Origin: Methylorubrum populi | GTDB taxonomy: Bacteria > Pseudomonadota > Alphaproteobacteria > Rhizobiales > Beijerinckiaceae | Assembly: GCA_036946625.1 (NCBI GenBank) | Contig: JAQIIU010000002.1 | Span: forward strand, 1,532,001 to 1,596,000 | Direction: 5' to 3' | DNA length: 64,000 bases | In this document: in pieces, positions 21,428 through 28,423 of the stretch | Numbering within the stretch: position 1 is the first letter of the stretch | Layout: each line of letters begins with the position of its first letter | Notes under the pieces: generated by a model | The model's database searches: none | What the model saw: only the letters and a program-made list of their open reading frames with translations | Told to the model about the DNA's origin: nothing | Position numbers and translations under genes: made by a program

Positions 21428-21726
21428 GCGAACCCCCCGCCGACGCCGAGACGTTCCTGGCCGCGACCGACACCCTCGCGGCCCTGCGCCCGGAACTGAG
21501 CCTCCTGGAGGCCGGCATCCTCGCCGGCCTGCATCTCGGGCTCGCGGGCGACAGCCGCAGCTTCGCCCGCATCTTCGGCGTCGAGCACGCCCTGGTGCTG
21601 CGGGCGGTGGAGGGACTTGCCGGCGCGGCGCTCCTCACCGTCACCGCCCGCGACGGCCGCACCCAGCGCACCCGCTACGCGGCGAGCGCGGCCGGAACTG
21701 CGGTGTTGACGGCGCTCGCGGCTTAA
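21424..21726 (+). CDS. fdh4B: Small protein partner of the molybdoenzyme, fdh4B-like
   Basis: 100-residue soluble protein translated from a GTG that overlaps the stop of the preceding gene (GTGA), so the two are co-translated. It is helical, with LRPELSLLEAGILAGLHLGLAGDSRSF and FARIFGVEHALVLRAVEGLA, and ends in a small beta wing-like part (LLTVTARDGRTQRTRYAAS); the profile suggests a winged-helix fold. I assign it to fdh4B from size and position next to fdh4A. Biochemical role unknown; it may be an assembly factor or a subunit. Its stop overlaps that of the convergent TonB receptor gene. Confidence 0.72.
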   Translation: MSEPPADAETFLAATDTLAALRPELSLLEAGILAGLHLGLAGDSRSFARIFGVEHALVLRAVEGLAGAALLTVTARDGRTQRTRYAASAAGTAVLTALAA

Positions 21727-23870
21727 AATCGGGCGGTCAGGAACAGCCGCACGTTGCGCCCCGGCAGCACCACCTCGTCCTTACGGAAGGAGGCGGCGTT
21801 GCGGATCACGTCGTCGAGCAGGTTGGTGCCGCGCAGGCCCAGCGTCACCTCGCTCAGACCGTACACGGCCGGATCGAGCGGGCGGCTGCAGGCGATCTCC
21901 GCCCTGAGGTCGTTGTAGCCGGGCGTCGGCGTCTCCAGCGCTCCGGTCTGCGTCTGCGCGAAGGCGTGGAGCAGGCTCACCTGTGCGGACCATCCGTCCG
22001 CCCGCAGGAACACGCCGCCGCCGACGCGGTGGGGCGGGATGCGCGGCACGAAGCGGCCGTCGTCGAACTGCGCCCGCACGAAGTCGTACTGGGCGCTGAT
22101 GCCGGCAAACCCGTCGCCGACCGGCACGAGGTCGATCTGGCCCGCGATCTCGGCCCCGGTGAAGGTCGTGCCGGCCTGCGAATAGGCGACCTGCCGCAGA
22201 TCCCCGCCACCGATCCCGCAACTGCCGAAGGTGTCGCCGCAGGTGAAGCCGGTCAGGCGCTTGTAGACGAAGCCGGTGTAGCGGGTGACGTAGCCGGTCG
22301 CGTCGAGGCGGAAGGGGCCCTCCGCGCGACGGATGCCGAGCTCGACGGTGCGGGCGCGCTCCGGCCTGAGATCGGGATCGCCGATCTCGAAGGTGGCGGA
22401 GGCCTCGTGCGGTCCGCGCGAGAACAGTTCCGGCGCGGTCGGGGCACGCTCGACGTAGGAGCCGGTGAGGCTCGCGACGAAGCCGTGGGGCAGATCCTGA
22501 AGCGCGCCGAAGCTCGCGCTCTTCGGGACGGAGCGGCGGGTGCGGCGGGATTCCACCGGCTCGTCACCGGGCCCCTCGGGCAGGAAGCCGGACGGGAACA
22601 GCGCCTGGGTGCCGGCGACCCTGTTGCCCTCGATGCGGCCCGCCGCCTGGAACCGCAGGCCGCCGCCGAGCGCCAGTTCCTCGAACAGGTAGGCGGCGTC
22701 GACCCGGGTGTCGGCGGGGCGCAATAGGCCCCCTTCCGCGCCGGAGATGCCGATCCTGCGCCGGTCCGATTGGAGGCCGAGCTGGCCGCTCAGGGTTCCG
22801 AACGCCGTCTCGACGGGACGGTGGTCGAGCTCGATCCGCCCTTCCGCCGCGCGGTTCCTGAACACCGCCTCGATGTCCTCGACGCCGTTCGCGCCGGTGC
22901 CGAACTCGTTGTGCCGGTAGTTCGAGCCGCCGGCCCAGAACCGGATCGCCGCAAACGGCCCGTCGAGCGGACGATACTCGCCGCGGGCCTGGAGCTTGTC
23001 CTGCCTCGGGTCGAGGCGGGTTCGCTGCGCCGCGGCGCCGCGGCCGGGGATGCCGTAGACGGAATCGAAATGGCTGAAGGACAGGCCGACGAAGCCGCGG
23101 TCGAACAGGAGGGAGGTGCCGAAGGCGCCGCCCTGCGACCGGTTGAAGGCGTTGCGCTGGATGCCGAGGGGCGTGTCGTAATCGTCCGCCGCGCTTCGGA
23201 AAGCGTCGGCGTGGACGGCGACGTTGCCGCTGCCGGCATCGACCGTGGCGGCGACGTTGCGACCGTCGTCGACCGTCGAGGTGCCGGTCGTGACCCGCCC
23301 CGCGACACCGCCCGCCGGAATGCCCGTTGGAATGCGGTCGTTCTCCACCGAGACCACACCGCCGACCGCCTGCGAGCCGTAGCGCAGGCCTGCCGGCCCG
23401 CGGATCACCTCGATGCGGTCGGCGATCAGCGGGTTGATCGGCACGGCGTGATCCTCGCCGAGATCGGACATGTCCTGCACGCCGGTGCCGTTTTCGAGGA
23501 TGCGGACGCGGTGGTTGTCGAGACCGCGCACGATCGGGCGCGAGGCGGAGCCCGGCGCGAAGGTCGAGGCGGACAGGCCCGGCCTGTCGAACAGGGCCTC
23601 GCCCAGAGAGGTCGGCTGCGAACGCGCGAGCTCGTTGCCGGGGACGACGGTGACCGTCGAGAAACGACCGGTCGCCACCGGCAGGACGCCGACGGCACCG
23701 TCCGGGGCCGGATTCGGTCCCGCCGCCGCCTCGCCCGCGCGCCGGCCCGGCCTGTCCGAGGTGACGCTAATCTCGTCCAGGGAGATCTCCTCGGCCTGCA
23801 GCGGGGACACGACGAGGCTGGCGAAGCCGATCCCGGCCCAACGGCCAAGCCCATAACGCTTCCTCGGCAT
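21723..23870 (-). CDS. TonB-dependent receptor, ZnuD-like
   Basis: Outer-membrane transporter of 715 residues. The signal peptide (GIGFASLVVSPLQAEE) is followed by a short linker with ISLDEISVTSD as TonB box region. The plug reads LGEALFDRPGLSAS, RPIVRGLDNHRVRILENGTGVQDMSD, EDHAVPINPLIADRIEVIRGPAGLRYG and IGGVVSV-like VGGVVSVENDRIP. This resembles ZnuD zinc receptors more than siderophore receptors. The barrel ends with a terminal RF. A pair of Cys (TCGDTFGSCGIGG) sits in one extracellular loop. The gene stands alone; an 18-bp palindrome overlaps its putative -10. Substrate could be zinc or another metal chelate. Confidence 0.9.
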   Translation of the reverse strand: MPRKRYGLGRWAGIGFASLVVSPLQAEEISLDEISVTSDRPGRRAGEAAAGPNPAPDGAVGVLPVATGRFSTVTVVPGNELARSQPTSLGEALFDRPGLSASTFAPGSASRPIVRGLDNHRVRILENGTGVQDMSDLGEDHAVPINPLIADRIEVIRGPAGLRYGSQAVGGVVSVENDRIPTGIPAGGVAGRVTTGTSTVDDGRNVAATVDAGSGNVAVHADAFRSAADDYDTPLGIQRNAFNRSQGGAFGTSLLFDRGFVGLSFSHFDSVYGIPGRGAAAQRTRLDPRQDKLQARGEYRPLDGPFAAIRFWAGGSNYRHNEFGTGANGVEDIEAVFRNRAAEGRIELDHRPVETAFGTLSGQLGLQSDRRRIGISGAEGGLLRPADTRVDAAYLFEELALGGGLRFQAAGRIEGNRVAGTQALFPSGFLPEGPGDEPVESRRTRRSVPKSASFGALQDLPHGFVASLTGSYVERAPTAPELFSRGPHEASATFEIGDPDLRPERARTVELGIRRAEGPFRLDATGYVTRYTGFVYKRLTGFTCGDTFGSCGIGGGDLRQVAYSQAGTTFTGAEIAGQIDLVPVGDGFAGISAQYDFVRAQFDDGRFVPRIPPHRVGGGVFLRADGWSAQVSLLHAFAQTQTGALETPTPGYNDLRAEIACSRPLDPAVYGLSEVTLGLRGTNLLDDVIRNAASFRKDEVVLPGRNVRLFLTARF

Positions 23871-23888
23871 GAGACCTTCTCGTCCAAA

Positions 23889-23906
23889 TTATAGCTTGAG
23901 CTATAA
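23889..23906. promoter_or_regulatory. Perfect 18-bp palindromic operator overlapping the TonB receptor promoter
   Basis: TTATAGCTTGAGCTATAA has two 8-base arms around TG. On the - strand it contains TATAAT, a perfect -10 hexamer, with TTGCAC 19 bases upstream as a possible -35. It lies 19 bases before the receptor ATG. A repressor bound here would block the promoter. The A+T-rich dyad is in the style of Zur or Fur-family boxes but does not match one exactly. Confidence 0.6.
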
Positions 23907-23998
23907 ATTCGAGTGCAACCGTTGTCGAGCCGGGAGGTGACGCGCGATGCGTGAGGAAGGGTCCGCCTGGACGATCGTGCCGGTCAGAAAACGCGAAA

Positions 23999-26827: not shown

Positions 26828-28078
26828 TCAGAAGGTGAAACCGGTCTCGACGAGGTAGCGCTCCTGCGAGCGGCGGGTGCCGTCGCGGCCGAAGCCGAAG
26901 CCGGGCGTCACGTCGTAGGCCTGCACCGTCGCGAACTCGCCGCGGAGGAAGTAGCGGTCCCAGGTGAAGGTCGGCGTGATCGTGAACGAGAAGGCCGAAC
27001 TGCCCGGGCCGTAGAGGACGCTGGTCGCCGCGGTCGGCGAGACATCGCCGCGCGTGCCCGACTGCGCGATGTACTCGACGCGGCCGGCCAGCGCGAAGTT
27101 GTCGGTGAAGGTGTAGCCGGCCAGCAGGGCGCCGCCCCAGGTCTCCGCACCGTTGATCGGGGTGAGATAACCCTCCTTGCGGGCGACGTTGGTGTACTGG
27201 ACGTACGGCGAGATGATCCACGGCCCGTTGGCGTAGGTGTAGTTCACGCTGACGATGCTGCTGTTCTGCAGCGAGTTGATCGTCGCGAACTGGAAGCGCG
27301 GGCTGCGGGTCGAGGCGTCGAAGTCGCTGAAATGCGTGCCGCCGTTGATGCCGATCGTGTTCGAGTCGTCGAGCTTGTAGGTGGCGAAGCCCGTCACCCA
27401 GTTCAGTTCGCCGGAATAGAAGCCGTCGGTCACCGCGAGGGCGGCCGCGAAGGGCCCGCTGGCGTAGTTCACCTGGACGCCGTGGTTGATGAAGTTCTCC
27501 TGGTTGAACACCAGGCCGCGGGAGATGTTCAGGTTCTGGTAGGAGAACAGCAGTTCGGAGCCGATGTTGGTGAACATCCGGCCGGCCTGGATCGACCACT
27601 CGTCGTTGATCTGCCACTTGCCGAAGGCGACCGGGATCGGGCCGAACAGCGACTCGGTCTGCTCGAACGAGGAGTAGAGCGGCAGGCCGAGCGCCGGGAT
27701 CGAGTAGAGGCCGGCATGCACGTAGAACTGCAGCGGGCCGTCCGCCTTCTGGATCCAGCCCTGCAGGTTCGAGAAGTCGACGCGGCCGTAGCGGTCCACC
27801 TCACCGCCGGGCGAGACGATGCCGAAGGCGTTGGTCTGGGTGTAGGCGAATCCGGTGATGGCGCCACCGACATAGATGTCGCCGAGGCCCGTGACGATGC
27901 AGGCCGGGTTGGGATTCGCCTTGATGAGACCGCCGAAGGTCGGGGTCGAGATCGCGGCCTTGCAGTGCTCTTCGACGATCACGGGCGCCTGCGCCGGCAT
28001 GTCGGCGGCCAGGGCCGGCATCGCGATGACAGTCGAGAGCATCGCCCCCGCGGCCAGGATCTTCGTGTCGATTGTCAT
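26828..28078 (-). CDS. Outer-membrane beta-barrel porin (OmpL/BBP2-like)
   Basis: 416 residues. A clear Sec signal peptide (ILAAGAMLSTVIAMPALAAD) is followed by a short N-terminal part containing two Cys (EEHCKAAI and NPACIV) and then amphipathic strands rich in Tyr, Phe and Asn, for example SIQAGRMFTNIGSELLFSYQN and VSVNYTYANGPWIISPYVQYTN. It ends in Phe (LVETGFTF), as needed for BAM-dependent insertion. It resembles the putative beta-barrel porin-2 family; the pore substrate is unknown. Codon use is strongly biased, as in highly expressed genes. It has its own terminator. Confidence 0.85.
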   Translation of the reverse strand: MTIDTKILAAGAMLSTVIAMPALAADMPAQAPVIVEEHCKAAISTPTFGGLIKANPNPACIVTGLGDIYVGGAITGFAYTQTNAFGIVSPGGEVDRYGRVDFSNLQGWIQKADGPLQFYVHAGLYSIPALGLPLYSSFEQTESLFGPIPVAFGKWQINDEWSIQAGRMFTNIGSELLFSYQNLNISRGLVFNQENFINHGVQVNYASGPFAAALAVTDGFYSGELNWVTGFATYKLDDSNTIGINGGTHFSDFDASTRSPRFQFATINSLQNSSIVSVNYTYANGPWIISPYVQYTNVARKEGYLTPINGAETWGGALLAGYTFTDNFALAGRVEYIAQSGTRGDVSPTAATSVLYGPGSSAFSFTITPTFTWDRYFLRGEFATVQAYDVTPGFGFGRDGTRRSQERYLVETGFTF

Positions 28079-28423
28079 CAGGCTCAGCCCCCAGGTCTTT
28101 GATACTGCCAAGGTGCCGAACTCGACCGTTCGGGGCAAAATGAAGTTTTGCGCATTTGCCTAGTTTTTGAGCAAATCCGCGTCGGGGCAACCTAAGGAAG
28201 ATCCCATGTTGCGGGAAGGCAACGCCTGCTCCCACCACAGAAGTCGGATCTTTCGCAGAAAACCGGCGCGCTCTTCACGTTTCGTCAACCTTGTAAAAAC
28301 CGACAGCCGGAGAATCCGCAGGGCGCAGCAAATCCGTCTTCGCATCCGGTGACGCAAAAAGGCCCCGGCGCGGCGCGCCGGGGCCCTCGTTCGCGTCACC
28401 TGCCCCAGGGGCAGGGACATCGA
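28079..28423. other. Intergenic stretch between amtB and the porin gene
   Basis: 345 bases without a gene. The amtB terminator occupies 28361-28385. The rest, up to 28350, is richer in A+T than its surroundings and should hold the porin promoter and a long leader, reading leftwards; TTTTGAGC and CAAAATG tracts lie near 28135-28170. I could not place promoter hexamers with confidence. Confidence 0.5.
28361..28385 (-). terminator. Rho-independent terminator behind amtB
   Basis: GGCCCCGGCGC and GCGCCGGGGCC pair as an 11-bp stem with a 3-base loop; read on the - strand it is followed by TTTTTGCGTC. It lies 38 bases behind the amtB stop. Confidence 0.8.

Follow-up and report, generated by a model that had tools for sequence, protein, structure and literature searches.

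A candidate MntR operator at the promoter of a ZnuD-family outer-membrane receptor in Methylorubrum populi

Few proteins for the passage of manganese over the outer membrane are named in the accessible part of a review (PMC9334652). MnoT of Burkholderia and MnoP of Bradyrhizobium, which are likewise outer-membrane proteins of manganese uptake, are not described as ZnuD-family members in that part of the text, and were likened to the families considered here by their descriptions. A TonB-dependent receptor of Stenotrophomonas maltophilia also carries an MntR box over its promoter, and one bidirectional promoter serves both mntR and mntH in that organism; this receptor is of a different family, marked by the motif CQNC in its plug and accompanied by a pTFP gene (PMC13217887, available text). 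No CQNC motif was found in the translation of the receptor analyzed here, and the gene upstream of it is ftsK rather than pTFP. The E. coli MntR operators of mntH, mntS, and mntP similarly consist of TAGC/GCTA half-sites four bases apart with A+T-rich ends, although the target in the present locus is, unlike theirs, an outer-membrane receptor. Expression of mntH rose about four-fold, and that of mntR fell, in M. extorquens AM1 carrying an insertion between the two genes (PMC5023240, excerpt).

At the protein level, Neisseria ZnuD (4RDR) was the best solved relative of the receptor (E = 1.5e-49), in agreement with an earlier note on this DNA that had called it ZnuD-like. The two proteins have a homologous plug and barrel and four zinc ligands in common. 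In contrast to Neisseria ZnuD, the receptor has an MntR box and no zinc-type element seen upstream, and scored 249.9 bits with the NCBIfam ZnuD model, far below its cut-off of 950. It also lacks the His-rich loop 3, a stretch in which the His clusters of ZnuD have been placed (PMC4557270, text in part): between the aligned parts, 59 residues in 4RDR correspond to 5 in the receptor, and the loop is missing from both copies in the own genome. The closest named relatives of the receptor (86-89% identical) are from Methylorubrum and Methylobacterium species.

Position and sequence of the dyad

The analyzed stretch of 64,000 nucleotides, referred to as the window, contains the following features around the dyad.

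21723..23870, minus strand: ZnuD-like TonB-dependent receptor of 715 aa, clade A (Pfam Plug and TonB barrel; ZnuD the best solved relative)
23875..23881, minus strand: likely Shine-Dalgarno stretch GAGAAGG, as read from the sequence
23889..23906, no strand: 18-bp dyad, putative MntR box, with core TATAGC-N4-GCTATA at 23890-23905
23900..23905, minus strand: proposed -10 hexamer TATAGC, within the box, 17 nt downstream of TCGACA (from 16 aligned upstream regions)
23923..23928, minus strand: proposed -35 hexamer TCGACA, with TCGACR at the same place in 13/16 orthologues

The dyad, TTATAGCTTGAGCTATAA, was the only match in the window at up to three mismatches (0.01 expected from shuffles), and its matrix score of 34.9 was the best in the window, the next best being -0.7. 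It had been described as a perfect 18-bp palindrome, which holds for the 8+8 arm bases; the central TG is not self-complementary and 16 of the 18 bases pair. Between dyad and ATG, 18 bases were counted instead of the 19 given previously. The TATAAT at 23888-23893 (minus strand), which had been proposed as a perfect -10, shares bases with the dyad, but would be a poor -10 and was ruled out on spacing, since the start site would then fall within the Shine-Dalgarno stretch. The TATAGC in the other arm, at its distance from TCGACA, fits better as a candidate -10.

Motif counts were of little use. In the own genome, TTATAGCTNNAGCTATAA occurred at up to three mismatches in 3 places against 4 for a backwards control, and ATAGCN4GCTAT in 4 places against 2; a scan of the genus at up to one mismatch gave sites in 99/99 genomes, with the backwards control higher in most of them. 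Because the control was similar or higher, copy number was dropped as evidence for the dyad, and the argument that it is more than a chance motif is based on its conservation and context.

Conservation of the box and its probable association with MntR

An orthologue of the receptor (clade A) was present in 16/99 genus genomes; 15 were placed by tree, and that of G117, which a contig end splits, was assigned by identity. In 98/99 genomes there was a sister copy (clade B), 60-69% identical; G023 showed the clade A copy only. A rapid tree of 65 proteins, with long outgroup branches flagged, set each of clades A and B apart from the rest by a branch (SH-aLRT 99 and 96). All 16 clade A upstream regions carried the box, centered 27 nt before the start codon, while none of the 41 clade B upstream regions scanned did so. 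When the 16 orthologues were aligned, the 12 half-site columns averaged 99% identity, compared with 67% for the other upstream columns. The spacer was variable and one orthologue has GATAGC; the true motif is therefore TATAGC-N4-GCTATA and not the 18-mer. With a score threshold of 8, only 0.2% of 1,500 base-shuffled upstream regions passed, at a top score of 10.5.

The scoring matrix was trained on 45 Methylobacterium sites picked by exact ATAGCN4GCTAT, 44 of them beside mntH/mntR and one beside the porin gene omp3; the latter, from L176, belongs to the omp3 gene of G008, whose box score is therefore not independent. Scanned with this matrix, the E. coli K-12 promoters of mntH, mntS, and mntP each had their box top-ranked (3/3 stretches scanned; AAACATAGCCTTTGCTATGTTT, AGATATAGCACAGGCTATATTA, AGACATAGCTTAGGCTATATTA), and a second box was present before each of mntS and mntP. 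The box before mntS (AGATATAGCACAGGCTATATTA) was the closest of these MntR-regulated promoter sites to the dyad. A difference is the CATAGC of the E. coli mntH box, the genus sites having a near-fixed outer T/A (TATAGC). In the own genome, the best second copy, GTATAGCATCAGCTATAA, lies between mntH and mntR (G000:C2:94470-94487). The MntH and MntR proteins encoded there both scored above NCBIfam cut-offs (MntR 250.4, cut-off 153). This MntR was the only PF02742 (DtxR-family regulator) protein found in the own genome. Its alignment with the E. coli counterpart (2H09) extends through the helix-turn-helix at 193 bits, and 6/6 of the manganese ligands listed for B. subtilis MntR are retained (PMC2628430, in part). 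Two kinds of MntH are encoded beside MntR across the genus, one sharing 78-91% identity with that of the own genome and the other only 45-49%, and the same box precedes both (L067, L081-L083, L088, L173, L185, L192, and L193).

Motif, fixed position, conservation, genomic partners, and regulator, all of which were read from sequence, thus indicate that the dyad is almost certainly an operator for MntR, the manganese-sensing DtxR-family repressor. The earlier note had proposed a metal-regulator site that did not exactly fit Zur, Fur, Irr, or MntR boxes. The site itself was borne out, as a box of the E. coli type shared with the mntH-mntR region; the supposed mismatch with MntR was not, in view of the E. 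coli promoters and of the second copy in the same genome. Since the dyad matches known MntR boxes, it does not represent a new type of regulator site.

Different elements occur before the sister copies. Sequences such as GAAACATTATAACGTG were read by eye in many clade B promoters. In the own genome, RNAACATTRTAAC was absent upstream of the window receptor gene but had 3 occurrences elsewhere, against 0 for the backwards control. Two of these precede the sister, and the other lies before a broken ZnuD-like frame (L394; G000:C1:319971-322013). This frame, which is broken up by stops, is the third for a ZnuD-like receptor and has the sister's zinc-type element before it. A one-mismatch relative of RNAACATTRTAAC directly precedes a gene for a ZnuA/AztC-like binding protein (AztC score 313.7, below the cut-off of 350), no obvious zinc gene follows either of two other one-mismatch copies, and at two mismatches 21 matches were obtained against 18 in the control. 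The sister element is probably of a zinc type, and its genomic placement suggests that it may be a Zur site. The Zur motif GTTA-N5-TAAC (PMC4176598, available portion) is absent from the sequence upstream of the window receptor.

Boxed outer-membrane genes across Methylobacterium

Among the matches listed, 54/54 distinct exact sites in relatives adjoin mntH/mntR or one of four outer-membrane families: 28 mntH/mntR, 12 omp2, 11 omp1, 2 window-type receptor, and 1 omp3. The site in L064 was counted once in this number, and a further exact site, in G005, is a receptor box already included in the 16 orthologues. The idea of a small regulon, in which transport genes share the site, was in this way borne out for mntH/mntR and outer-membrane genes. 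The four boxed barrel families are the ZnuD-type TonB receptor, an OMP_b-brl-OprB two-part barrel (omp1), a 12-stranded DUF6662-like barrel (omp2), and an OprB porin (omp3).

Sites of the form ATAGCN4GCTAT in the own genome comprised, besides the window dyad and the mntH/mntR copy, one at a siderophore-type TonB receptor and one inside a 456-aa reading frame (L056; G000:C3:49921). The latter probably arose by chance; it scores 13.2, above the threshold, and not every such site can therefore be regarded as functional. The siderophore-type receptor (L168:2434-4734, minus strand; G000:C3 near 731730; TIGR01783 over cut-off) has the looser MntR-like site CATAGCTTTAGCTATA (score 20.1) at its start. 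Within the window, a gene for a BBP2-family putative porin lies beyond ftsK (26828-28138, minus strand), for which the matrix scan of the window revealed no MntR-like site.

The families omp1-3 were named from boxed sites and then tested in reverse, by protein search and upstream scan. For omp1 and omp2, the boxed counts are from a wider upstream window, the narrower one having missed many omp1 boxes. The omp1 gene (OMP_b-brl plus OprB-like) was present in 89/99 genomes and boxed in 61/89 by the best copy scanned, which for most genomes was the only copy considered (extra copies in G006, G011, G019, G027, G107, G111, G117, G122, and G125 were left out); several of these boxes were weak (8.6 to 17.7). 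The weakly DUF6662-like omp2 occurred in 32/99 genomes at 50% identity or more and was boxed in 31/32, three of them weakly, the remaining copy (G027) being unassessed because its upstream piece was too short. In the structure model it forms a 12-stranded barrel, with channel-type barrels as the nearest solved folds. Its three weakest boxes (G028, G048, and G120) scored 8.3-11.6 and have one good half-site each. The upstream regions concerned (L222, L351, and L352, from G120, G028, and G048) have a common one-sided box, TATAGCATCATGCATA-like, and are perhaps decaying sites. OprB-type omp3 was found in 11/99 genomes at 63% identity or more, boxed in 8/11, and none of 19 more distant paralogues scanned had a box before it.

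In total, 92/99 genus genomes had at least one boxed outer-membrane gene, counting some weak boxes. None was found in the remaining seven (G010, G034, G099, G113, G124, G125, and G128); in G034, G124, and G128 the omp3 boxes are decayed, the G099 piece stops at a contig end, and G113 is 70% complete.

The boxed genes were unevenly distributed. According to Fisher tests, which ignore relatedness (13/16 receptor genomes are one tight clade, implying few independent events), a boxed omp1 occurred in 2/16 clade A receptor genomes and in 59/83 others (p = 0.00002), a boxed omp2 in 0/16 and 31/83 (p = 0.002), and a boxed omp3 in 0/16 and 8/83 (p = 0.35). Similarly, a boxed omp3 was found in 0/61 genomes with a boxed omp1 and in 8/38 without. 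Replacement is only partial, since boxed omp1 and boxed omp2 occurred together in 22 genomes. In 14/16 receptor genomes omp1 is present with no box in the copy scanned, which looks like a role handed over to the receptor.

Cargo of the receptor and competing readings

In the proposed mechanism, Mn-bound MntR would, when cytoplasmic manganese is sufficient, bind TATAGC-N4-GCTATA across the core promoter and block receptor transcription. As judged from the anatomy of the site, with the box over the likely -10, bound MntR would exclude RNA polymerase. When manganese is scarce, the receptor would be made along with the inner-membrane importer MntH; it would carry manganese, free or chelated, over the outer membrane with TonB energy, after which MntH would import it. 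To this whole chain of an MntR operator, repression, and a manganese-importing ZnuD-family paralogue, in which we infer binding, repression, and the metal, we assign a probability of about 0.6.

The zinc ligands of ZnuD, D99, H100, E340, and H499 (PMC4557270, same excerpt), map to D140, H141, E322, and H488 in the alignment with 4RDR, and all four are kept in 15/15 clade A, 41/41 clade B, and 9/9 outgroup rows. No metal-ligand change between clades A and B was found in the alignment rows, while 26 other columns differ consistently between them, including M134/V near the ligands and Q639/H. In the structure model, pLDDT was below 50 in plug loop 101-144 and no site geometry was drawn from it. 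Because all four zinc ligands are kept, the receptor sequence does not favor manganese over zinc; the case for manganese, which we regard as the probable cargo, derives from the regulation and the replacement pattern. For the same reason, a receptor under MntR control whose cargo is still zinc, or more than one divalent metal, with the wiring reflecting cross-talk or metal substitution, was given serious weight. A ligand set of two His, one Asp, and one Glu is able to hold manganese as well as zinc, as in manganese-binding proteins such as PsaA, and its conservation in both clades and the outgroups would suit such a receptor. Nevertheless, the sister with its different, probably zinc-type, promoter element in 98/99 genomes, and the rarity of boxed omp1 and lack of boxed omp2 or omp3 in clade A genomes, as would be seen if the receptor filled the manganese role of these barrels, make this reading unlikely.

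The remaining readings concern the dyad itself. ZnuD-type genes are usually under Zur, and a ZnuD-like receptor might accordingly be controlled by Zur, Fur, Irr, or the Fur-family Mur through this site. A Zur box was rejected for want of GTTA-N5-TAAC and in view of the different element before the ZnuD-type sister and the broken ZnuD-like frame; Fur and Irr boxes, judged by their general motifs, were not matched either. With this box recurring at mntH/mntR and in promoters that MntR controls in E. coli, use of the dyad by another metal regulator is very improbable. Activation of the receptor by MntR would have a precedent in some bacteria, in which MntR activates efflux genes, such as yebN in Xanthomonas (PMC3136493, available part), but has a slim chance here, with the box over the likely core promoter of an uptake-type receptor that shares it with mntH. 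An origin of the dyad by chance, as an A+T-rich palindrome in a promoter, could be argued from the A+T richness of -10 regions and from raw motif counts that did not exceed the backwards control. The identity of its half-site columns compared with the other upstream columns, its fixed position in 16/16 orthologues, its absence from 41/41 sister regions, and the low frequency of passing scores among shuffled regions leave this reading a negligible probability.

Methylobacterium may combine an invariant inner-membrane step of manganese uptake, MntH with MntR, and an interchangeable outer-membrane gate, for which at least four MntR-boxed barrel families would partly swap between species. The window receptor would then be a ZnuD paralogue re-specialized for manganese by regulator exchange, its MntR box standing in place of the sister's zinc-type element and its metal ligands unchanged. 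This wider picture is tentative, with odds slightly short of even. In the open-licence literature, no description of an MntR-boxed outer-membrane regulon of Methylobacterium was found among the matches listed, by title or abstract opening. For the outer-membrane step of manganese uptake, on which knowledge is scant, this analysis of harmless methylotrophs supplies an operator that can be named, a regulon that can be tested, and four candidates for the gate. As the receptor and its sister share the four ligands but differ in their promoter elements, a comparison of the two would show directly whether regulation or the binding site sets the metal of a ZnuD-type receptor.
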